The notes beneath the pieces were generated by a model, which had not been told where the DNA came from, did no database searches, and saw only the letters and a list, made by a program, of their open reading frames with translations. Below are positions 5,952 through 56,536 of a stretch of DNA of 64,000 nt, in pieces (the first letter of the stretch is position 1; each line of letters begins with the position of its first letter). The DNA comes from Paracoccaceae bacterium (GTDB lineage: Bacteria > Pseudomonadota > Alphaproteobacteria > Rhodobacterales > Rhodobacteraceae), in the NCBI GenBank assembly GCA_014239455.1, contig JAAZYV010000006.1, forward strand, positions 109,445 to 173,444. Reading direction: 5' to 3'. The position numbers and the translations under genes were made by a program.

Positions 5952-7256
5952 ATGACTAATGTCGTGGTTGTAGGCTGTCAGTGGGGAGATGAGGGAAAAG
6001 GAAAATTAGTTGATTACCTAAGCGGAAAAGCTGATGTTATTGTAAGGTTTCAAGGGGGGAATAATGCAGGTCATACCATAGTCATTGATGAAAAAGTTTT
6101 TAAATTGTCTCTCTTACCTTCAGGAATAATAAGGGATGGGAAATTGTCGGTCATTGGTAACGGTGTTGTACTTGATCCTTGGGCATTAAGAGTAGAGATC
6201 GAGTCCTTAATTAAATTAGGCATTAGTGTTACCAAATACAATTTAATTATTGCAGAAAATGTACCATTAATCTTATCTTTTCACAAAGATTTAGACTTAT
6301 TAAGGGAAGAAAGGGCAGGTTCCAAAAAGATTGGTACTACCGGCAGGGGTATTGGACCGGCCTATGAAGATAAAGTGGGTAGGAGAGCTATTCGCTTGTC
6401 AGATCTAGAAAAACCCAAAGGTCTTCGCGCCCGCTTAGAAAGATCCCTAGAACATCACAATATTTTGAGGAAAGGATATGGTAAATCAGTCATAGAAACA
6501 GGAGAAATTTTAGAGCAACTGGAAGAGATTTCAACTTTTGTTACAAAATTTTCAGCACCAGTTTGGAAAGTCTTAAATGGTAAAAATAGAGAAGGTGCGA
6601 ATATTTTATTTGAAGGTGCACAAGGTAGTCTTCTAGATGTAGATTTTGGAACTTATCCGTTCGTGACTTCCTCTAATACTATGGCTGCATCAGCATCACT
6701 GGGTTCTGGTTTTCCCGCCCAAAAAATTGATTTTGTGTTGGGAGTGGTTAAAGCTTATACGACTAGGGTCGGGGAGGGTCCTTTCCCCACAGAACTAAAG
6801 AATGATAAAGTCGGTTTGCACCTGGAAACAGTTGGTCATGAAAAGGGAACTGTTACAGGGAGAAACCGAAGGTGCGGTTGGTTCGATGCTAGTTTAGTCA
6901 AGCAAAGTTGTATTTTAAATGGAGTTAATGGAATTGCTATAACTAAATTAGATGTTTTAGATGGTTTGAAAGAATTGAAGATTTGCACAGGCTATGAGAT
7001 AAGTGGTCAATTTTATGAATACTTACCATCATCCATTCATTCGTTTGGCGAAATCAAACCTATTTACGAAAGCTATGAGGGATGGGATGAAACCACTGAA
7101 GGCATTTCTTCATTTGATAAGTTGCCAAGTAATGCTATCGCATATTTAAGAAGAATAGAAGAATTAGTTGGATGTCCAATCAGCTCAATTTCTACATCAC
7201 CTGAAAGGGAAGATTTGGTTCACCTCAGAGATCCGTTTGAGAAACCTATTAAATAA
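5952..7256 (+). CDS. purA: Adenylosuccinate synthase
   Basis: GTP-dependent ligation of IMP and aspartate to adenylosuccinate, the first committed step to AMP. 434 aa from ATG at 5952, chosen because AAGGA at 5941-5945 precedes it and the protein then begins [18 protein letters not shown], the canonical N-terminus; an in-frame TTG at 5937 would add only five residues. Family signatures seen: [17 protein letters not shown] with the catalytic His, [14 protein letters not shown], the IMP loop VTSSNT, and [14 protein letters not shown]2842 gene abuts the stop codon. Confidence 0.97.
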
Positions 7257-40418: not shown

Positions 40419-40490
40419 TGTCTTAATCAGTCAATAATCAGTCAAACAGTGCTTGATTCTTTTCGTCAATACTAGTTATTTGAAACTTGT

Positions 40491-40580
40491 GGAGAGGTGG
40501 CCGAGTGGTCGAAGGCGCACGCCTGGAAAGTGTGTAGGCGGGAGACCGTCTCCAGGGTTCGAATCCCTGTCTCTCCGCCA
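40491..40580 (+). tRNA. tRNA-Ser (anticodon GGA)
   Basis: 90 nt including encoded CCA. Seven-base acceptor stem (GGAGAGG with TCTCTCC, discriminator G), D arm GCCGAGTGG, anticodon stem CACGC/GTGTG with loop CTGGAAA giving anticodon GGA, a long class II variable arm (about GCGGGAGACCGTC) and T arm AGGGTTCGAATCCCT. The long variable arm and anticodon fix the identity as serine, reading UCC/UCU. Confidence 0.97.
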
Positions 40581-40613
40581 TGAACCCCCATTTTGAGTTA
40601 TTAGGGTTAACCT

Positions 40614-44056: not shown

Positions 44057-44683
44057 ATGTGGGATAGAAATGAGATGGCGGCCAGGGCAGCAAAGGAAAT
44101 CAAGGATGGGATGTATGTAAATCTGGGAATAGGCATACCCACCCTAGTTTCAAATTTTATCCCAAAAAATTTGAATGTCACTTTACAGTCAGAGAATGGG
44201 ATGCTTGGAATGGGACCATTCCCAAAGGAATCTGAGGTTGATCCAGATTTAATAAATGCTGGCAAGCAAACTATTACCGAGCTTGATAAAACAAGTTATT
44301 TTTCGAGTGCTGACAGTTTCGCTATGATCCGTGGTGGCCATATCGATATGGCTATACTAGGCGCTATGGAAGTTTCTGATTCAGGTGATTTAGCTAATTG
44401 GATGATTCCCGGGAAACTTGTTAAGGGCATGGGTGGAGCTATGGATTTAGTTGCTGGAGTAAAACGTGTAATTGTTATTATGGATCATACTAACAAGAAA
44501 GGCGAAAGTAAGTTGCTCAAGGAATGTACATTGCCATTGACGGGTAAGGGTGTTGTAGATTCCCTTATTACAAATTATGGTATGTTTGAGGTTGTTAAAG
44601 GAGGCATAAAGATTGTAGAAATTGCTGAAGGTTCAAGCTTTGAAGAAATCCGGGCGGCTACTTTAGGAAACTTGATAGTTTAA
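44057..44683 (+). CDS. scoB: 3-oxoacid CoA-transferase subunit B
   Basis: Catalytic beta subunit, 208 aa. The CoA-thioester-forming glutamate is Glu46 in SENGMLGMGP; other blocks are GIGIPTLVSNF, RGGHIDMAILGAMEVS, and VIVIMDHTNKKGESK. AAGGAG six bases before ATG. With ScoA it activates acetoacetate for use as carbon source, feeding C2/C4 acyl-CoA to pathways such as that of Ccr. The 3' end overlaps the convergent MFS gene by 26 bases. Confidence 0.94.
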   Translation: MWDRNEMAARAAKEIKDGMYVNLGIGIPTLVSNFIPKNLNVTLQSENGMLGMGPFPKESEVDPDLINAGKQTITELDKTSYFSSADSFAMIRGGHIDMAILGAMEVSDSGDLANWMIPGKLVKGMGGAMDLVAGVKRVIVIMDHTNKKGESKLLKECTLPLTGKGVVDSLITNYGMFEVVKGGIKIVEIAEGSSFEEIRAATLGNLIV

Positions 44684-45911
44684 AATATCCGTGTGTTGTA
44701 GGCTTAGTTTTCAAGACAATCATCCAAAGGCCTATGGTGGAGAAACTCATTATGAGGGCCATCATCTGAAATTGACTTGAGAGAGAGACGTGGGCGTCTA
44801 GGAATATTCCACTAAATAATGGTCCCAATGCTGATGCGATAACCATCGAGGAGGCAGCTATTGCCCGTACATCTCCCAGGTGTCTTGTTCCAAAAAATTC
44901 AGGCCAAAAGGTTCCACTAAAAGCATTGCTCAGACCTTGCATCATACCTAGGAATGCAAACGCAATAGCACTGACAATAGGGTCATTGAGGAAGCTACCA
45001 AGAATGAAGCCAAGTATTCCGGGAACTAAATAAAAAGGGATCAAAAGTCTAACTCCAAATTTATCAATAAGAATTCCAGCTATGAATGTAGCAATGACAC
45101 TCACCATGGTATAGATAGGGACAAGGATGGCAAATTGATTTATTTCCCAACCTTTTTCAACGCCTAAATGTACTTGTTGAAAAAAGAAAATAGTGACAAA
45201 CATTGATTGTGCCATTGTAGCCAGTAGCATTGGCCAAGAAATCCAACTCCTAAGTACCTCACCCTTAGTCCAGTGTTTTCCATTAAGACCGACCCCAATA
45301 TTGTTATTGAGACTATTCACCGCACTTCTCGGAGTTCTTTCTCCATTGAGCAGTTTTCTAAAGATGAAACTTACTAGCAACAAGAGAATTGCGGCTATTC
45401 CCCAAGAGTATCTCCAACCAATCCATCCCATGAGTGAGACAAAGGTCAAAGGCATTAAGGCTTCTCCAAAAGCAAAGCCAAGGCTGGTGGCGGCAACGGT
45501 CTTACCTCTATTTTTAAAGAACCATCTTCCACAAAGCACCATTGATAAGTGGCTTACAAACCCCTGCCCAAAGAATCGCAAACCAAAGATCAATATTGGA
45601 AGGAACCAAACATGTGAAACTAACATCATTCCCAGGCAAAAAATAGCTAATGCAATGATTATAATAGTTCCCAGTTCTCGAGGCTTCCACTTATCTGCCA
45701 GGCCGCCAAAATTGAACATCAAAACAGCTGACAATAGCGTACCAATAGCGTATATGCTTCCCCAGATTGTATGGCTTATAGCAAATTCCTGTCTAATTTC
45801 TCCAGCAAATATTGCTATAAAGAAAGTTTGTCCAAATGAAGAGGAGAAATATAGCAGTGTAGTTATGGAAAGCCATCTGGAATTTTGAAGATAAAAGTTG
45901 GTTTTACTCAT
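44658..45911 (-). CDS. MFS transporter
   Basis: 417 aa, twelve hydrophobic helices. Loop 2-3 motif FGGLADKWKPRELG and the GFAFGEALMPLTFV segment place it in MFS; substrate unknown. Overlaps scoB by 26 bases tail to tail. A three-helix stretch HLSMVLCGRWFFKNRGK is conserved in this branch. Confidence 0.8.
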   Translation of the reverse strand: MSKTNFYLQNSRWLSITTLLYFSSSFGQTFFIAIFAGEIRQEFAISHTIWGSIYAIGTLLSAVLMFNFGGLADKWKPRELGTIIIIALAIFCLGMMLVSHVWFLPILIFGLRFFGQGFVSHLSMVLCGRWFFKNRGKTVAATSLGFAFGEALMPLTFVSLMGWIGWRYSWGIAAILLLLVSFIFRKLLNGERTPRSAVNSLNNNIGVGLNGKHWTKGEVLRSWISWPMLLATMAQSMFVTIFFFQQVHLGVEKGWEINQFAILVPIYTMVSVIATFIAGILIDKFGVRLLIPFYLVPGILGFILGSFLNDPIVSAIAFAFLGMMQGLSNAFSGTFWPEFFGTRHLGDVRAIAASSMVIASALGPLFSGIFLDAHVSLSSQFQMMALIMSFSTIGLWMIVLKTKPTTHGYFKLSSFLK

Positions 45912-48192: not shown

Positions 48193-49455
48193 TTAGCCAA
48201 ACATGTCAGAAGTAATTCCAGAATACCAACCTAGGCTTTCTTCATAGGTTGCTTTTCTTAACGCGACATCTTCGCCAGTTTTTGACACAAACCCAGAGAC
48301 TTTGGCTATTTTCTCGTCTGTTGCTTCATAACTTGCACCCACTTTGATTCCATCGTTAGTTTCAACAAGCGACCAGCAAGTATTGGAAAACTTAGCTGGG
48401 AACAACTTTGAGTCAGTTAAAGCAGCCCTAACGGCCATGGCACATACTTTAGCTTGAGAGTTCGCAGAAAAACCTGATTTTGGCATATCGCCTTGAGATG
48501 AAGCATCTCCAAGAACATGAATATGATCATTCTTTCTGCTTTGCATAGTATGTGGAATCACAGGAGCCCAATTACCGTCAGTAACTCCAGCAATTTCAGC
48601 AATTTTCCCAGCTTTCATCGCAGGAATAACATTACAGACATCCACTTTTTCAGAACTTCCATCTATGACAACTTCCATGCTATCAGGTCTAACTTCAACA
48701 CTTTTACCGCCCATGTCAGGTCCTATGCGCTCAATCATTCCTGAATAATGTTTGTTCCAACCTTCTTCGAAAAGACCTTGCTTAGAGAATTTTGGTTTAG
48801 GATCAAGAATTAGAATTTTTGCGCTTGGATTGCTCTTCTTTAGTTTGTGAGCAACCATGGATACCCTTTCATAGGGGCCTGGAGGACATCTGAATGGATT
48901 TGGCGGGGCTACCATACAATAAGTGCCCCCAGATTTCATATTGTCAATTTGGGCACTCAAAAGTTGAGTTTGAGATCCAGCTTTATAGGAGTGCGGCATT
49001 TTATTCTGTGAGGATAAATCCCAACCAGGGACTGAGCCATCTACAAAATCAATCCCAGGAGATAGGATCAGTTTATCATAACTCAAAGATCCTCCACCTG
49101 CCAAAGAAACGTTCCTATTATTTGAATCTACATCTACAGCCCAGTCATGAACAACATTAATTCCGTAATCATTCGCTAATTTTCCATAGGTGTGACCTAT
49201 GGAATCAAAATCTCTAAAGCCACCCAAATAAAGATTTGAGAAAAAACATGTATAATAGCTTCTCGTAGGCTCCACCAGAGTCACATCTATGGCACCTTTT
49301 GAGTCTTTGGCGATATACCTTGCTGCTGTCGCTCCTCCAGCTCCTCCCCCAATTACAACCACCTTAGATCTGGAAGCTCCAAAAACCACAGGTGCTGCCA
49401 TTGTAGCAGTAATGCCGGCCGAAGCCGAAATAAAATGTCTTCTATTGAGTTTCAT
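48193..49455 (-). CDS. fccB: Flavocytochrome c sulfide dehydrogenase, flavoprotein subunit
   Basis: Oxidises sulfide to sulfur/polysulfide and passes electrons to the partner cytochrome. 420 aa. N-terminal twin-arginine-like export signal (RRHFISASAG, then hydrophobic stretch). FAD loop VVIGGGAGGATAARYI, active-site cysteines in YYTCFF and NPFRCPPGPYER (redox disulfide pair), HVLGDAS FAD block, and the C-terminal FCSD domain to SLGWYSGITSDMFG. AAGGAGG lies seven bases before ATG. Encoded just downstream of its likely cytochrome partner. SoxF is the same family. Confidence 0.9.
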   Translation of the reverse strand: MKLNRRHFISASAGITATMAAPVVFGASRSKVVVIGGGAGGATAARYIAKDSKGAIDVTLVEPTRSYYTCFFSNLYLGGFRDFDSIGHTYGKLANDYGINVVHDWAVDVDSNNRNVSLAGGGSLSYDKLILSPGIDFVDGSVPGWDLSSQNKMPHSYKAGSQTQLLSAQIDNMKSGGTYCMVAPPNPFRCPPGPYERVSMVAHKLKKSNPSAKILILDPKPKFSKQGLFEEGWNKHYSGMIERIGPDMGGKSVEVRPDSMEVVIDGSSEKVDVCNVIPAMKAGKIAEIAGVTDGNWAPVIPHTMQSRKNDHIHVLGDASSQGDMPKSGFSANSQAKVCAMAVRAALTDSKLFPAKFSNTCWSLVETNDGIKVGASYEATDEKIAKVSGFVSKTGEDVALRKATYEESLGWYSGITSDMFG

Positions 49456-49474
49456 ATTTCATCCTCCTTATGAA

Positions 49475-50167
49475 TTAATTATTTATCGAATTGAAAAAAA
49501 TAGCAAGTGACGCAATTTCCTCATTAGAAAGTCGTTTTGTGATCATCTCCATAATGGGATGTTTTCTATTTCCATTTTTATAAGCATGCAGGGCTATAAT
49601 AAAGGATTTTACTGGCCAATTTGTTATAGATGGGATGCCTTCATCTTTTCCTGAAGCTTGATGACATGTGGCACATTCACTTGATAAATACTCCCCATAA
49701 TCACGATCTCCTGCAATGGACAAAATTTCTTCCGGCAGCGAATTTTCTTGAACCGAAGATCCTTGAGACGATTCGGATGCTTGCCATATAAATTCAATAA
49801 TTTTCTTTCTTTCCAATTCGTCCTTTATTCCTGAAAAATTCATGTTAGTTCCCTGAATGAACTTTCTTGGTTCTTTCAAGTATTTGTCTAACATTGGTTT
49901 TTCCCAGCGGATGGCTTGTTCCTTCAATTCTAGCAGAGAATTTGAATATTTAAAATTTTCAACAGATCCAACCACTCTGCCTCCAATTTCGTTAAGGTGG
50001 GGGCCAACACGATTCTTTGCCTCAGCACCAATTTGGTGGCAGGTTTTGCATTTCTTAAAAATTTTTTCTCCGCCCACTATTTCAGTTGCTGAAACGTTAT
50101 GCAGTCCGACATTCAAAAAAATTGAAGCAATTAGCATTAATGCGAAAAGTACCGTGAACAATCTCAT
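49475..50167 (-). CDS. Diheme cytochrome c, probable FccA-type partner of FccB
   Basis: 230 aa from ATG 50167 (the open frame reaches 50257 but the signal peptide begins here; no good ribosome site for either). Signal peptide 1-27. Heme 1: Cys40-x2-Cys43-His44 with axial Met109 in GTNMNFSG, a cytochrome c2/c550-like domain (residues 30-130). Heme 2: Cys165-x2-Cys168-His169 in a c553/FccA-like domain (150-230). The linker is Ser/Gln-rich. Accepts electrons from FccB and probably delivers them to a terminal oxidase or soluble carrier. Twenty bases separate it from fccB. Confidence 0.82.
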   Translation of the reverse strand: MRLFTVLFALMLIASIFLNVGLHNVSATEIVGGEKIFKKCKTCHQIGAEAKNRVGPHLNEIGGRVVGSVENFKYSNSLLELKEQAIRWEKPMLDKYLKEPRKFIQGTNMNFSGIKDELERKKIIEFIWQASESSQGSSVQENSLPEEILSIAGDRDYGEYLSSECATCHQASGKDEGIPSITNWPVKSFIIALHAYKNGNRKHPIMEMITKRLSNEEIASLAIFFNSINN

Positions 50168-50226
50168 AAGTATGATTATATAAACCGCAGTTTTTCTCCT
50201 CAAGGTTCTATATTTATTGAAATTAC

Positions 50227-50450
50227 TTAAAAAGACACTAGTTTTTTGTAAAAACATTTAATTTGTCGAGAAATCAAATCTGGATCTTCTTCATGCATTA
50301 GGTGCCCGTGATTTTTATTAATTTGTAACTCCGAGAACATCATTTGCTTTGATGCTTTCATACTATCTGAATTTTGAACTATATTATCTTTCTCTCCCAG
50401 AATAAAAGAAATTGGTATGCTTAAGTTTTGCCATTCTCGGGTTAACTTAT
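50227..50450 (-). pseudogene. bchO: C-terminal remnant of BchO-type alpha/beta hydrolase
   Basis: About 72 codons ending at TAA (50229-50227): REWQNLSIPISFILGEKDN followed by the catalytic-His region NHGHLMHEEDPDLI. The GHLxHEE block is that of BchO, the hydrolase encoded after bchI-bchD in photosynthesis clusters. No 5' part, lid or nucleophile elbow remains. The reading frame runs straight into the crtC remnant at about 50450, so this is one side of a deletion junction. Orientation (leftward) and place relative to crtC/crtD match the classical order. Other alpha/beta hydrolases could give a similar tail; the context makes bchO most likely. Confidence 0.68.
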
Positions 50451-50555
50451 TGAGATTCCATCAACGTACCACCAGGCATAGCCATTCTTCTCTACTATGA
50501 CATCAAATTTAGGTTGCGTAAGATTGTTTCTGCCGCATGCTTGCCGGATTGGCAT
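50448..50555 (-). pseudogene. crtC: 5' remnant of hydroxyneurosporene synthase (CrtC)
   Basis: From ATG at 50555 about 35 codons are readable: MPIRQACGRNNLTQ, then FDVIVEKNGYAWWYVDGIS. The GYAWWYVD block, followed in complete enzymes by SDDG, is a hallmark of the CrtC N-terminus (1,2-hydration of neurosporene-type carotenoids in spheroidene synthesis). The start overlaps the crtD 3' end, as expected for a crtDC operon. After the last matching codon the sequence becomes bchO-like, so nearly all of crtC has been deleted. Confidence 0.78.
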
Positions 50556-51994
50556 GCCATCGGTACTCCTGCTCCTGGATGGGTTCCTCCTCCGGGCGAC
50601 CAACAAACCCTTTATCTGGCTTTGGGATAGAGGCTTTTTGAATGTAGAATTGATTCCATGAGGGTTTCTTCCGTATAAAGATTTGGATGAGCCAGGAAAT
50701 AATTTGTCGAATTCGAAGAGTGTGGTCAACATTTCTTTTTTTGGGCTTAATTTCAGTTTCAGTCCCATCGATTCTAGGATTGGAAATGTTGTATTTTTGC
50801 ATCTTTGAAATTCCTCATGTTTATCCGGACTCTTTGGGTTTGAAATAGAGGCGGCGTTGATTATTATTTCGAAGCCACCAATGGCAGTGGAACTTGGCGT
50901 TGGATCCTTATTATTGCCTTGGGTGCAAACATACAGAATTGGATCTGTAGGGATGATTCCCTCATTGATATCTTGAAACTCCTTTTTGTAGTTAATATTG
51001 AAGAAGACATTGTGATGAACCAATTTGTAGTTAGCTGGTTTAGTCGCAAAACTCCACACATAAGCAGAGAGCATACTAGGCTGTGGTTTCTTTTGAGCAA
51101 TATTTTTTTAACTTGGTTACCCAATAAACCCATTGTTAAAGCCCTAGGATCTCCGTTGAACAGGACTATATCGGCAAATATTTCCTCACCGTTCTCTAGT
51201 TTAATTCCTTTTACTTTTTTATCCTCAATCAGAATTTTATCTACTGATTGCCCATAATTAAAAACAGCGCCAGTCTTTTGAGCTATTCTTTCCATAGATT
51301 TTGGCATTTGATGCATATCACCTTTGATTCTCCAAACTCCTTTACTTTCCACATTCCAGATTAAGGATAATATGGACGGTGACATGAAAGGTGAGTCACC
51401 AACATATGTTGCATAACGAGCAAATAGCTGGATTAAACGAGGATCAGAAAAATTGTCTTCCAGGAATTCATACAGAATTCTCTGCCTTAGCAAAGTTTCA
51501 TAGAGTGCTTTTCCATTTTTAATTCCATTAATCAGTATGGGCAAAACCTTAGGTTTAGGGCTTTTAATAATGGGTTCATTAAATAGGCTGAAGAGTTTTT
51601 TTGAAAGAGAGTTAAATTTTTCAAATTCTTTAGCTGATCTTACTCCTGAAAAATCTATGATGGAGACCATGTTTTTTTCGAATGAGGGGAATAGATCTAA
51701 GGAGCTTCCATCTCTCCACCAATGACGGGCTAAAATTTCTTTAGGAACAAGCTCTAGATGATCTTCAATATGTTCGCCGTACGTCCTGAAAAGTTCTTCA
51801 AATATTTCATGCATTATTAAAACTGTTGGGTCAGAGTCGATTAATCCGGCAGCGCTATTTTTGGTTCTAATCTTACCACCAGGATAGGATTGTTTCTCAA
51901 ATATTTGAACATTAATCCCACAGGTCGAAAGTCTCATAGCAGCTGCCAGGCCACCTATGCTACTACCTACAATGATCACTTTCTTATATTTCAA
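50495..51994 (-). pseudogene. crtD: Hydroxyneurosporene desaturase CrtD, twice frameshifted
   Basis: Carotenoid 3,4-desaturase of the spheroidene/spirilloxanthin branch. First frame (51994 to about 51090) is excellent CrtD: GSSIGGLAAAMRLS, PGGKIRT, DSDPTVLIMHEIFEELF, ARHWWRDGSSLDLF, FARYATYVGDSPF and GVWRIKGDMHQMP. A one-base shift near 51090 moves the match to a second frame (SAYVWSFATKPANYKLVHHNVFF, PTDPILYVC); a second shift near 50598 moves it to a third (GGGTHPGAGVPMA, KHAAETIL) ending at TAG 50497-50495. All three pieces are colinear, so the gene was once complete and is now broken. Confidence 0.9.
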
Positions 51995-52026
51995 AATCTT
52001 AAAACCAAATTGATTCAGAACTTCTG

Positions 52027-52044
52027 TGTATTAAGGCACTTACA
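52027..52044. promoter_or_regulatory. PpsR/CrtJ-type operator (TGT-N12-ACA)
   Basis: TGTATTAAGGCACTTACA fits the TGT-N12-ACA consensus of PpsR/CrtJ, the redox/light repressor of photosynthesis genes. It lies in the 116-bp gap between divergent crtD and crtE, where PpsR sites are known in Rhodobacter. Symmetry beyond the outer triplets is poor. No ppsR gene is in the window. Confidence 0.55.
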
Positions 52045-52050
52045 TTTAAG

Positions 52051-52067
52051 TGTCGAAAAATTCGACA
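52051..52067. promoter_or_regulatory. Second PpsR-like palindrome (TGT-N11-ACA)
   Basis: TGTCGAAAAATTCGACA is a perfect inverted repeat with seven-base arms and three-base centre. It matches TGT-N11-ACA and is one base shorter than the usual PpsR spacing. It sits six bases from the first site, so the pair resembles the tandem operator that PpsR/CrtJ uses cooperatively. It could also be an operator for another regulator. Confidence 0.45.
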
Positions 52068-52110
52068 ATTTTTACTCCATATGCTAGATCGTATTCGCTA
52101 AGGAGCAACT

Positions 52111-52992
52111 ATGACGAAAGCAAATAATATCCAAGAGAGAATAAATATAGCTTTGTCTCAAACGCTGAGGAGTGCGAAAGATTCGCCAGCTCCACCAAAA
52201 GTGGCAGCAGCGATTGATTACGCTGTTTTTCCAGGAGGAGCAAGGGTCCGACCACGTTTGTGCTTAGCAGTTGCAGAAGCCTGCGGAGAGGATTTTCCTA
52301 AAATAACTGACTCTGCTGCAGTTGCCATTTAGCTAATGCACTGTGCTAGTTTGGTGCACGATGATCTTCCTTGTTTTGATGATGCGGCTTTGAGGCGCGG
52401 CAAACCAACTGCACACCGGGCTTTTGGTGAGACTGTGGCTGTTTTGGCTGGCGATGCATTGATAATACTAGCTTTTGAAAATCTGGCCAAAGGTTGCATG
52501 AAATGTCCAGAAAGATTACCCAGTCTCATTAGAATCCTTACTAAATCATCGGGCTTGCCTTTTGGGATTTGTTCAGGCCAAGGTTGGGAAAGTGAAAAAA
52601 AAATCAAATTGAGTGCTTACCATCAACTTAAAACCGGATCCTTATTTATTGCAGCCAGCTGTATGGGCGCTGTATCGGCTGGGGAAGATTTTGAACCTTG
52701 GGTTGAATTAGGAGCAAGGGTTGGGGAAGCATTTCAGGTGGCTGATGACCTAAAAGATGTGGTTGGACAATTGGATGAACTGGGTAAACCGAAAGGGCAG
52801 GACGCTATTAATAGCAGGCCAAGTGCCGTGTCAGAATTAGGAGTCGAGGGAGCCATAGATCGTTTGCAGGAAATTTTGAGTGGGGCTATTGCGTCTATTC
52901 CCGCTTGTGCAGGTGAAGCACAGTTATGTGAAATCATTCGTCATCAGGCTAAGCAATTAATGCCCGCCTTTGCTGCAGATAAAGTTCTATAA
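52111..52992 (+). pseudogene. crtE: Geranylgeranyl diphosphate synthase CrtE with internal amber codon
   Basis: Prenyltransferase making GGPP for carotenoids and bacteriochlorophyll tails. 293 codons in one frame, broken only by TAG at 52330-52332 in the context AVAI*LMHCASLVHDDLPCFDD, where homologues have Glu (GAG to TAG). Otherwise complete: first Asp-rich motif DDLPCFD, RRGKPTAHRAFGE, and second Asp-rich motif VADDLKDVVG. AGGAG stands before ATG 52111. Lengths and motifs are those of a CrtE/IspA-type enzyme. A sequencing error cannot be excluded, but neighbours on both sides are broken. Confidence 0.88.
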
Positions 52993-52998
52993 GCTCTT

Positions 52999-53250
52999 GT
53001 GACTTATAATGGATTGGTTTTTAGTTGGATGAATAATCTCGTAGCCAAGCCGAAGTTTCACACTTTGGTTAAAAAAATTCCCATACTTAATAGATTGGCG
53101 GCGAAAGACGGTCGTAGAATTTATGACTTAGTTTCGGGTTTCGTCTATAGCCAAGTTTTGCTTGCAATGGTGGAACTTAGACTATTCAAATTTTTGTTGT
53201 CCGGGAAAAAAAACATCAGGGAACTTTCTGATTATGCGCAACTTGATCAA
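52999..53250 (+). pseudogene. crtF: 5' remnant of hydroxyneurosporene O-methyltransferase (CrtF)
   Basis: Starts at TTG 52999, six bases after crtE. About 84 codons match the N-terminal dimerisation domain of CrtF: WMNNLVAKPKFHTL, GRRIYDLVSGFVYSQVLLAMVELRLFKFL and GKKNIRELSDYAQLD. The SAM-binding catalytic domain of roughly 270 residues is missing. Homology ends at a run of A (53248-53256). Position after crtE is the classical crtEF order. Confidence 0.85.
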
Positions 53251-53255
53251 AAAAA

Positions 53256-53339
53256 ATGCTTGAGGAAGAGAAAATTTGTGCATATTATACTGGAGGAAAG
53301 ATCTATGCGGCTTATGACCGCTTAGTATCTCCGGTATAA
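53256..53339 (+). other. Unidentified 3' gene tail upstream of dxs
   Basis: After the crtF remnant an open frame MLEEEKICAYYTGGKIYAAY then DRLVSPV* remains for 27 codons. It looks like the C-terminus of a real protein (ordered composition, stop before a non-coding gap), and would be the right edge of the deletion that removed crtF 3', bchCXYZ and puf genes. I do not recognise the gene; in related clusters the gene just before dxs is a puf gene. Confidence 0.35.
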
Positions 53340-53420
53340 GAGTGCATAATTAAACAGTGGTGGAAGAGGATGGTTCTCACATAGCTCTTCAGTACTGTTT
53401 TTTTTCTTTAAGGACTAATT

Positions 53421-55346
53421 ATGGTAAATTTTCCAATTTTAGACCAAGTTGATCTGCCTTCTGACCTAAGGCAGTTATCAGACAGCCAACTCGCTAGCTT
53501 AGCTAGGGAGTTACGAGCTGAGACAATATCTATTGTTTCAGAAACGGGAGGACATTTGGGTTCTAGTTTAGGGGTAATCGAACTGACTGTTGCATTGCAT
53601 GCTGTTTTTAATACTCCGCATGATCGGTTAATTTGGGACGTAAGCCATCAGTGTTACCCGCATAAGATACTTACTGGAAGACGAAATAGAATGAGAACCA
53701 TGAGGCAGAAAGAAGGCCTTTCTGGTTTTACTAAGAGATCCGAGAGCGAATACGATCCTTTTGGAGCGGCACATTCCTCAACGTCGATCTCAGCAGCTTT
53801 AGGTTTTACAGTGGCCAGGGAACTGGGAACATCGGTTGGTGATGCAATAGCCGTGATTGGTGATGGATCCATTAGTGCTGGTATGGCATACGAAGGATTA
53901 AACAACGCAGGTTCAGAAGGTCGTAGACTTTTCGTGATTTTGAATGATAACGAGATGTCTATAGCACCACCAGCAGGTGCAATGTCGAAATATCTTTCCA
54001 GTCTTTATGCGAATAATGAATTTTATAGCCTCACAAAACTAGCAGAAGGTTTAGCTAAGAGCTTGCCTAGCCCAATACAGGAGGGCGCTCGAAGAGCTAA
54101 GAGTCTAATTACCGGTATGGCTTCTGGGGGAACTTTTTTCGAGGAATTAGGTTTTTCTTATTTGGGACCAATAAATGGTCATGATCTTGACCAGCTGTTG
54201 CCAGTGCTCAGAGCTGTAAAAGCGAGAGCTTCCGGTCCTACATTAATTCATTGTGTAACAAAAAAAGGAAAAGGCTATGAGCCAGCTGAAACTTCCTCAG
54301 ACAAGTATCATGGTGTAGCAAAATTTGATATAGCTTCTGGAGAGCAAAAGAAATCGAAACCAAATGCTCCCTCTTATACCAGTATTTTTGGAAAGGAATT
54401 GGTAAATCAGGCAAAAAAAGATCACCGGATTGTTGCTATAACGGCAGCGATGCCATCGGGTACAGGTTTAAATATTATGCAAGAAACCTTTCCGGAGAGA
54501 GTTTTTGATGTAGGTATTGCAGAACAACACGCTGTAACTTTTGCTGGTGGGATGGCTGCCGGGGGGTTGAGGCCTTTCTGTGCAATATATTCAACCTTTC
54601 TGCAAAGAGGCTATGACCAGATCGTTCACGATATTGCCCTCCAAGGTTTACCAGTGCGTTTTGCTATAGATCGAGCGGGATTAGTAGGTGCTGACGGTGC
54701 CACACACGCTGGCTCATTTGATGTTGCATATTTAACAAATTTACCAGGATTTGTTGTAATGGCTGCTGCCGATGAGGTAGAGCTCATGAACATGGTTGCT
54801 ACCGCTGCCGAATACGATTCTGGACCGATAGCCTTTAGATATCCACGTGGGGAAGGGGAAGGGATTGAACTTCCTGAGTCAGGAGTGCCAATTGAAATTG
54901 GTAAAGGTAGAATGATTCAAGAAGGGACTAGTGGTGTGGCTATTCTCAACTTTGGAGCACATTTGGGGGAAGTTCGTGATGCATCCACACTGTTAGAAAA
55001 ATCTGGAATCAGTTTAACGATCGCTGATGCTAGGTTTGCGAAGCCCTTAGATACAAAAATGCTAAAGGACTTGGCGGTTAATCACTCGGTATTGGTAACT
55101 ATTGAAGAAGGAGCAATAGGTGGTTTTGGTTCACACGTGGCTCAATTTCTAACGGAGAATGGTTTATTGGATGGTGATCTAAAATTTAGAGCCATGTTCC
55201 TGAAGGACAAATTTGTTGATCAAGCTTCCCCGAAAGAAATGTACCAGGCAGCTGGATTAGACTCTCAAGATATTGTAGAAAAAGTGCTCGACCTACTTGG
55301 AGTATCTGTAGGTAGATTTAAACAAAAAAATAATGAATCTGCTTGA
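53421..55346 (+). CDS. dxs: 1-deoxy-D-xylulose-5-phosphate synthase
   Basis: TPP enzyme that condenses pyruvate and glyceraldehyde-3-phosphate, entry step of the MEP isoprenoid pathway. 641 aa, complete. Blocks: [11 protein letters not shown] with substrate His, [18 protein letters not shown] (TPP-diphosphate motif), [17 protein letters not shown] with catalytic Glu, [18 protein letters not shown], and [11 protein letters not shown] at 53421 after AAGGA. In Rhodobacterales dxs commonly closes the puf operon; here it survives intact while that operon is gone. Needs thiamine diphosphate, made by TPK at 7529. Confidence 0.97.
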
Positions 55347-55358
55347 ATACTTGGATTT

Positions 55359-55889
55359 TTATAGAACCTTATTAAAAATATTTTCGGAGTGCTGTTTCAT
55401 GTAAATCTTAAACCATTCAGTGAATTTCTGAGGGTAAAGTTTCATTTCTACTTTAACTTCGGAAATGCTTATCCACTTGACCGACTTTACTTCCATGGAA
55501 TTTGGTCTCACATACAAATCAAGATCAGGAGATAAATCTGATACAAAGACCCTTACCACCTCATGTTCGATAAGCCCATTTCCTATTTCTGCCCGGTATT
55601 CCACTTCACTGCGAAATTGCAAATCTAATTTGCCTATCTCCAGTTCCTCTGAAAGCCTTCTATTTGCGCAGTTTTCAGGATTTTCTCCCCAGTGTGGGTG
55701 CGTGCAGGCTGTGTTTGCCCACAATTCCGGACTATGATATTTTATAGATGCGCGCTGTTGGATAAGTATATTCTCTTTCTGTTTAACGAAAACAGACACA
55801 GCTGGGTGCTTCAAGCCAAGTTTATGTACTTGAAGTTTTTCTACTGGTACTAAGCTATTATTTTTCCATGCCGCAATAACTTCGGTCAT
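55359..55889 (-). CDS. idi: Isopentenyl-diphosphate delta-isomerase, type I
   Basis: Interconverts IPP and DMAPP. 176 aa Nudix fold: metal/active-site segment NTACTHPHWGENPENCANRRLSEEL carries catalytic Cys62 and metal ligand His64, and HEVVRVF provides the acidic partner. Its ATG overlaps the bchP stop by four bases (ATGA), so it was the distal gene of a bchP-idi operon. Intact; because bchP is truncated its transcription must come from a new or internal promoter. Confidence 0.95.
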   Translation of the reverse strand: MTEVIAAWKNNSLVPVEKLQVHKLGLKHPAVSVFVKQKENILIQQRASIKYHSPELWANTACTHPHWGENPENCANRRLSEELEIGKLDLQFRSEVEYRAEIGNGLIEHEVVRVFVSDLSPDLDLYVRPNSMEVKSVKWISISEVKVEMKLYPQKFTEWFKIYMKQHSENIFNKVL

Positions 55890-56300
55890 GTAGTGGCTCT
55901 AACTAACCCTGATAAATGTAAAAGATTCTTAACCATAATTTTTAAATGGACTAGAGGTATTCGAGTGACCAATTTCTTATGAATATATGACTCAAAAGTC
56001 AATCTTTGAACGTCAACGTTTTTACACAAACTAACAAAACACTCCTTTCTATCATCAGATTTGTAGTAAGCGTTTTGCATGGCTTCGAGAACTCGAAAAA
56101 CAGTTTTGTGTTTTGACATAAATCTTTTACAAGCCAATTGTAAATCCTTAGAGTTTCCTGATAATAGACAGCTATGGGTAGCCAGGGCCGCTTCTTGGCC
56201 TCCTATCATGGCGTAGTAAATTCCCTCTCCGGATGAAGGAGCAACAAGCCCGGCCGCATCACCAGCCAACACTAAGTCTTTCCCAATATGATGAATCCTA
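55886..56300 (-). pseudogene. bchP: C-terminal remnant of geranylgeranyl reductase BchP
   Basis: About 135 codons matching the C-terminus of geranylgeranyl-bacteriochlorophyll reductase: GKDLVLAGDAAGLVAPSSGEGIYYAM (FAD second motif), KRFMSKHKTVFRVLEAMQ and CKNVDVQRLTFESYIHKKLV. The N-terminal FAD-binding half, about 250 residues, is missing. Upstream of about 56300 the sequence turns into the 3' end of hemA on the opposite strand, so the gene ends at a deletion junction. It retains the ATGA overlap with idi. Confidence 0.9.
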
Positions 56301-56536
56301 GCCATATTGTTCTGGTTATGATTAAGGACCCTGTGAAATGTAGAGAAATTAGCGATATTTTGCTCAATGAGAATGGTTTTTATGTTCAACCGATTAATTA
56401 TCCAACTGTCCCTAAGGGAAAAGAGAGGTTAAGATTTACACCATCACCGTTACATTCAGATGAAGATATTGATTATTTAGTAGAATGCCTAGCAAAATTG
56501 TGGAAGCAGTGCGCTCTCTCTAGAGTGGTTGCTTAA
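56297..56536 (+). pseudogene. hemA: C-terminal remnant of 5-aminolevulinate synthase
   Basis: About 80 codons match the ALAS C-terminus: SHIVLVMIKDPVKCREISD, LLNENGFYVQPINYPTVPKG, ERLRFTPSPLHS and LWKQCALSR. The PLP-binding N-terminal 320 residues are absent, replaced by bchP sequence. In Rhodobacter-type clusters hemA lies at the far end of the bchF-bchNBHLM-lhaA-puh superoperon, rightward, exactly where and how this fragment stands. Heme synthesis must rely on another gene elsewhere. Confidence 0.9.

Follow-up and report, generated by a model that had tools for sequence, protein, structure and literature searches.

It is an open question whether gain or loss lies behind the patchy occurrence of phototrophy among Proteobacteria (PMC6052148). 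For Rhodobacteraceae, models of regressive evolution and of horizontal transfer are still debated (PMC6052148), and for Erythrobacter both gain and loss have been considered (PMC4919336). Here we ask what can be read from one locus that displays loss in progress. It lies in a 64,000-nucleotide stretch of contig JAAZYV010000006.1 from a Paracoccaceae bacterium (hereafter the window) and holds what is left of a photosynthesis gene cluster (PGC). We consider it probable that three deletions, leaving dxs and idi in place, cut this PGC from ~44 to 6.3 kb, and that the collapsed block found in a second species of the genus arrived there, most likely, by homologous recombination from the lineage of the window. 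Since the block most likely moved in this way, the loss of phototrophy has likely spread sideways between species.

The window is part of contig C20 in a draft genome (G000; 997 kb, 73% complete), and the second species is represented by G006 (~2.5 Mb, 97% complete). The G+C content of the window is 38%, and the genus belongs to the low-GC Rhodobacteraceae. Two congeners with a PGC served as references: G004 (contig C3), in which an intact cluster of ~44 kb lies on a single contig, and G003, in which the PGC is spread over three contigs and the compared genes pufL, pufM, crtD, crtE, idi, dxs and hemA are all open. Eight of the 12 genus genomes match PF00124 (pufLM, or one of the two), in line with the descent from a phototroph that an initial annotation of the window had proposed. 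Two genomes lacking a pufLM match were not counted as further losses: G001 is an incomplete draft whose contig stops short of the locus, and G010 is an incomplete draft in which the spacing from bchO to crtC is that of an intact arm.

The collapsed cluster and its junctions

In G004 the cluster reads bchO, bchD, bchI, crtA, crtI, crtB, tspO, crtC, crtD, crtE, crtF, then bchC, X, Y, Z, pufL, pufM, puhA, dxs, idi, bchP, bchG, ppsR, and finally bchF, N, B, H, L, M, lhaA, puhB, puhC, acsF, puhE, hemA. Family scores support bchO (TIGR03056, 275 bits), crtC (NF045922, 426), crtD (NF045637, 640), puhA (TIGR01150, 318) and bchP (TIGR02023, 521). The names of crtB (443 of 500 bits), crtE and idi fall below the full cut-offs; bchX was named from a cut C-terminal part, the sole part scanned, crtF from a weak methyltransferase match and its position, and lhaA from position. 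Three open reading frames (ORFs) of the stretch gave no family match, and pufB and pufA, being below the size limit of the ORF list, are assumed.

Compared with G004 at the DNA level, by the synteny alignment that the initial annotation had suggested, the window falls into four collinear pieces between the same flanking genes, in the known PGC order. Relative to the intact cluster, the three gaps between the pieces measure ~8.3, 9.3 and 20.0 kb, 37.6 kb in total, so the three large deletions proposed earlier stand. The first deletion removed the 5' part of bchO, bchD, bchI, crtA, crtI, crtB, tspO and most of crtC; the second took the 3' part of crtF, bchC, bchX, bchY, bchZ, the puf genes and the 5' part of puhA; the third took the 5' part of bchP, bchG, ppsR, bchF, N, B, H, L and M, lhaA, puhB, puhC, acsF, puhE and the 5' part of hemA. 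With G003 as the unbroken reference, the joined ends overlap by 4–7 bp (Table 1), which points to joining at short repeats. Every remnant that had been named (bchO, crtC, crtD, crtE, crtF, bchP and hemA, with open dxs and idi) was found where placed, with order and strands kept; what had been overlooked is the 3' end of puhA, which forms the right side of junction 2.

Intact photosynthesis genes elsewhere in the genome had been named as evidence that would speak against loss. A search with PF00124 for pufLM gave no match in G000 (73% complete) or G006 (97% complete); bch and other puh genes were not searched for. Judged by its sequence, the locus is thus a PGC remnant and no working PGC. For rhodopsin, a conceivable substitute for the lost light-harvesting system, PF01036 matched none of the 12 genus genomes and likewise none of the control genomes, a result that does not demonstrate absence.

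One might suppose instead that only fragments ever reached a lineage in which no working cluster had existed, and transfer of whole clusters is indeed documented in the family (PMC6052148). We regard this as scarcely credible: the flanking genes and their order are those of the congeners, the flanks run on continuously with G004 on both sides, and the pieces beside junctions 2 and 3 share 91–92% DNA identity with G003, far beyond chance.

In G006, junctions 1 and 2 coincide to the base with those of the window, so these are not assembly errors. The third junction differs: in G006, bchP is 36 bp longer and hemA begins ~157 bp later. A reading in which all three junctions were common to both genomes proved wrong on this point, as a supposed 36-base filler is extra bchP sequence. 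Lesions outside the junctions fall separately in the two genomes. In the window they are the crtE stop and the frameshifts of crtD and crtF; in G006, in which crtE is open, they are a 624-bp in-frame crtD deletion, an 8-bp crtF duplication and two idi frameshifts. Each of the compared stops and frameshifts is private to one genome, which argues that decay set in only after the deletions common to both, the point decay after deletion that had been put forward earlier.

Table 1. Features of the collapsed cluster, in window coordinates.
Feature	Position	Strand	Remarks
Tract shared with G006, attributed to recombination	48450..56440 (ends approximate)	.	not uniform; crtE (52.1–53.0 kb) ambiguous
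bchO 3' remnant	50243..50461	-	~70 open codons; aligns to G004 bchO 6080-6298 and to G003 C66
Junction 1	50455..50461	.	7-bp microhomology ATTCCAT; ~8.3 kb gone
crtC 5' remnant	50455..50510 (end approximate)	-	~15–20 codons; aligns to G004 from 14570; overlaps crtD end
crtD pseudogene	50498..51994	-	full length; one -1 and one +1 frameshift
crtE	52111..52992	+	full length; one in-frame TAG, codon 74, 52330-52332
crtF 5' remnant	53009..53260	+	frameshifted; start codon inferred from relatives
Junction 2	53256..53260	.	5-bp microhomology ATGCT; ~9.3 kb gone
puhA 3' remnant	53256..53339	+	last 27 codons and stop
dxs	53421..55346	+	intact, only copy found; TIGR00204, 776 bits
idi	55359..55889	-	open; 110 and 98 bits, below cut-offs of 127 and 106
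bchP 3' remnant	55886..56285	-	G004 gene: TIGR02023, 521 bits
Junction 3	56280..56283	.	4-bp microhomology TTCC; ~20.0 kb gone
hemA (5-aminolevulinate synthase) 3' remnant	56280..56536	+	last ~80 codons; TIGR01821, 104.7 bits, E 5e-30

The classical PGC order (PMC3176799), on which the initial annotation relied, agrees with the present one in genes and strands, puhA excepted. Its classical place is between lhaA and puhB (PMC3176799), whereas in this genus it lies between pufM and dxs in all 17 stretches that match all three genes (overlapping stretches from seven genomes: G002, G003, G004, G007, G008, G009 and G011). None of 13 pufM stretches from other genera has puhA there; in the two that extend as far as puhA, the gene lies between lhaA and puhB. 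The lhaA-puhABC arrangement was not found in the congeners, and the window retains the puhA 3' end ahead of dxs. In this genus puhA (in G004 at L032:6026-6781) has moved out of the lhaA-puhB arm, which brings the genes for all three reaction-centre subunits, pufL, pufM and puhA, side by side.

Ancestry of the collapsed block

The earlier view of a loss within one lineage holds in that the collapse is real, but simple descent from parent to offspring fails, because block and flanks have conflicting histories. Over 35.6 kb of flanking sequence present in the window, G006 and G003 (17,512 + 11,059 + 6,994 sites), G006 and G003 are 4.7–4.8% apart, the window and G006 6.8–7.4%, and the window and G003 7.9–8.6%. 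Inside the block (5,365 sites) the corresponding distances are 8.6% for G006 and G003, 3.1% for the window and G006, and 9.2% for the window and G003. As the window–G003 distance is not lowered in the block, the lineage of G006 was the recipient; its donor was the lineage of the window or an unseen close relative. Resolved into 1-kb bins (only those with more than 300 sites available for all three genomes were used), the flanks place G006 with G003 in 33 of 38 bins and give one tie. In the block, G006 goes with the window in all six bins, by a narrow margin in that of crtE (52 kb; 5.0 versus 5.3%); at the right block edge the 56-kb bin is tied. In approximately unbiased (AU) tests, the left flank (35.8–44.6 kb) and the right flank reject all trees except that joining G003 and G006 (p < 1e-4). 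All trees except that joining G000 and G006 are rejected by the dxs-idi-bchP segment (AU p ≤ 0.002) and by the bchO-crtD segment (p about 0.016). At ~48.4 kb, left of the limits given in the initial annotation, identity between the window and G006 jumps from ~90% to 96–98%. Within the block it drops to 92–96% over crtD and crtE, and the best right-flank bins reach 95.6%; since these ranges overlap, it is the phylogenetic tests, rather than identity alone, that carry the argument.

Synonymous divergence (dS) separates block from flanks in the same way, crtE excepted. For dxs it is 0.036 between the window and G006, 0.363 between the window and G003, and 0.365 between G006 and G003, which marks the copy in G006 as the foreign one. 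Window–G006 values are 0.029 for idi, 0.035 for bchP and 0.050 for a part of crtD, well below the flank value of 0.26, pooled over 41 ORFs (range 0.093–1.574; ORFs without G006 sequence, nine of them in 20.5–29.5 kb, with <80 residues aligned or with <60% identity were left out). An idi value of 0.364 was discarded because it came from a frame-shifted protein alignment, and the nucleotide-based 0.029 was used. Over other stretches, crtE gives 0.190 and crtD 0.111 (versus 0.145 and 0.050). Ratios of non-synonymous to synonymous divergence (dN/dS) between the window and G006 are 1.08 for bchP, 0.87 for crtD, 0.76 for idi and 0.19 for dxs, as expected if dead genes stand near 1 and living dxs lower.

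These data bear on a single collapse in the common ancestor of the window's species and G006, followed by vertical inheritance, for which the base-for-base identity of junctions 1 and 2 would speak. Under such descent, G006 should not be the sister in its flanks of G003, which keeps its cluster. Moreover, dS of ~0.03 in dxs, idi and the bchP remnant, about one seventh of the flank value, is the reverse of what aged, unconstrained remnants would give. We therefore judge vertical descent very improbable.

Several observations weigh against the recombination reading. The G003 contig has a gap at 44.65–49.98 kb, so that the left edge of the tract is set by identity between the window and G006 only. 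Four of the 38 flank bins (9, 10, 40 and 41 kb) pair G006 with the window. Within the block, crtE rejects no tree, has a dS of 0.145 between the window and G006, and is open in G006; its stretch leaves the block ambiguous as a continuous single tract, and the import may have been mosaic, or crtE may have been exchanged a second time. A third lineage may have been the donor to both the window and G006. Finally, junction 3 is not common to the two genomes and neither version is nested in the other, so it may have been made twice independently, or one older deletion may have been re-trimmed in each lineage.

Short repeats can recur as deletion points. Together with the difference at junction 3, this lends some plausibility to independent, identical deletions at the same short repeats in both lineages, with exchange of the dxs region only. 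Two junctions are the same to the base, however, and around junction 1, too, the sequence places the window beside G006 (p about 0.016; 2.4% difference in 500 bases), which leaves independent deletion about as improbable as vertical descent.

A chimeric assembly, with reads of a collapsed strain joined into the contig of another species, would likewise show a block of discordant ancestry, and both genomes are drafts. Against this, the copies differ by ~3% and carry private lesions, so neither was built from reads of the other, and the window block is native by its distance to G003 (9.2%, compared with 7.9–8.6% in the flanks). A crtF remnant with extra bases of the G006 type is also listed on five contigs, the longest of 3,306 bp and hence distinct from the 62.9-kb contig of G006. 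For the ORF across junction 2, of which that remnant is a shorter relative, an identical protein is listed on contigs of up to 964 bp, hence other than the 173-kb contig of the window. These outside copies give weak support, as the listing does not establish independence of the samples. A protein search with the ORF at junction 3 gave no match covering >79% of the query among 120 listed of 699, which leaves that junction without outside support. For junctions 1 and 2, assembly error, a concern raised earlier, is excluded by their recurrence in G006. Overall a chimera is unlikely, if slightly less so than the two preceding alternatives.

Recombination into the lineage of G006 remains the explanation we favour. 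In this scheme, deletions would have arisen by RecA-independent joining at short repeats of 4–7 bp, and single-copy dxs, which could not be lost, would be the reason why the collapse took the form of separate deletions. In an ancestor of G006, a DNA fragment with the short allele would then have replaced the long one, a step suggested by the retention of the cluster in G003, to which G006 is closest in the flanks. After the exchange both lineages would have continued to decay independently, and the bacteria would no longer photosynthesise. DNA may have been taken up by transformation, a gene transfer agent or phage. A bolder and tentative extension, which we think possible though somewhat short of an even chance, is that loss of phototrophy is 'infectious' in the genus: the collapsed allele would sweep through species by recombination, replacing 44 kb in one step and leaving recipients dependent on neighbours for 5-aminolevulinate or heme.

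Two further observations concern the tract and its left flank. Window positions 48193-50257, adjoining the cluster inside the exchanged tract, encode a flavoprotein that weakly resembles sulfide:quinone reductases, scoring 66 bits against a cut-off of 525, together with a cytochrome c that has two CxxCH motifs. The gene at 44661-45911 has a dS of 1.57 to G006, similar to 1.70 versus G004, with neighbours at 0.2–0.4; it may mark another exchange or a fast-evolving locus.

Genes kept and lost with the cluster

Selection on dxs appears to have shaped the collapse. The missing segments stop ~160 bp short of dxs, with the puhA stub between, and resume ~390 bp beyond idi. Between the window and G003, dxs has a dN/dS of 0.03. 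A second dxs copy was not supported, as nine of 12 genus genomes have one full-length match each and other matches are distant. The initial annotation called idi intact; its reading frame is indeed open in the window, whereas the G006 copy carries frameshifts. For crtE, two other members of the prenyl synthase family are present in G000 and in G006, so it is not needed as sole prenyl synthase.

The loss of hemA has a testable consequence. In the genus, the cluster gene is the only match above the cut-off for 5-aminolevulinate synthase (one in each of six of 12 drafts). No such match was found in G000, only 73% complete, or in G006, 97% complete, where the best match is a glycine C-acetyltransferase (620 bits, cut-off 460). 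Across the family, 391 of 395 genomes (at least 95% complete, plus G000) have a synthase above the cut-off. Glutamyl-tRNA reductase of the C5 pathway matched none of the 12 genus genomes, with the control matched in 10 of 14. Both G000 and G006 nevertheless retain an intact hemB that is under constraint, with a dN/dS of about 0.12. With the only 5-aminolevulinate synthase found in the genus lost and hemB kept, the sequences predict that the bacteria of the window and of G006 depend on uptake of outside 5-aminolevulinate or a later precursor or heme. Besides G000 and G006, the family genomes without a match above the cut-off appear to be two other Rhodobacteraceae, G080 and G236 (95–99% complete), which show no clear 5-aminolevulinate synthase, as read from best E-values.

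Relation to known losses and exchanges

Citromicrobium offers a known case in which an entire cluster was lost (PMC3338782). In that case, as here, the lost phototrophy of a chemotroph is revealed by a close relative whose cluster is intact and bordered by the same genes. There, one hypothetical gene replaces the cluster, whereas here eight gene remnants and the junctions are readable, and the collapsed allele is common to a second species, most likely by recombination. The studies of Rhodobacteraceae and Erythrobacter (PMC6052148, PMC4919336) also ask whether patchy phototrophy means loss or gain; the main text of the former, which does not use 'remnant' or 'pseudogene', documents transfer of the cluster, whereas here the loss appears to have been transferred. 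Remnant carotenoids of non-phototrophic Acetobacteraceae, cited in a review (PMC12654162), are likewise a phototrophic leftover in non-phototrophs, but they are described there as a pigment trait of a family, while the present cluster can be read deletion by deletion.

The closest mechanistic likeness is to asymmetric transformation, in which import of shorter alleles deletes loci (PMC4774983, PMC5850275): when the arms on either side of the absent segment are homologous, a long allele can be displaced by a short one. That process has been described in pneumococci, as the test case, and for islands and mobile elements, whereas the present case would concern a 44-kb native metabolic cluster and exchange between marine species. 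In the open-access literature we found no description of a partly collapsed PGC or of transfer of PGC loss, no report joining PGC loss with import of a shorter allele, and no proposal that loss moves between species. If true, such movement would explain a patchy trait without many independent losses or gains. The locus also makes deletion joints, constraints and decay readable.

Two minor observations remain. G000 (997 kb, 73% complete) and G006 (~2.5 Mb, 97% complete) differ in size, within one genus, beyond what completeness explains. In the left flank, ~93 bases of the window (40489-40582) have many partial copies, 73–97% identical, elsewhere in the genomes of the genus.

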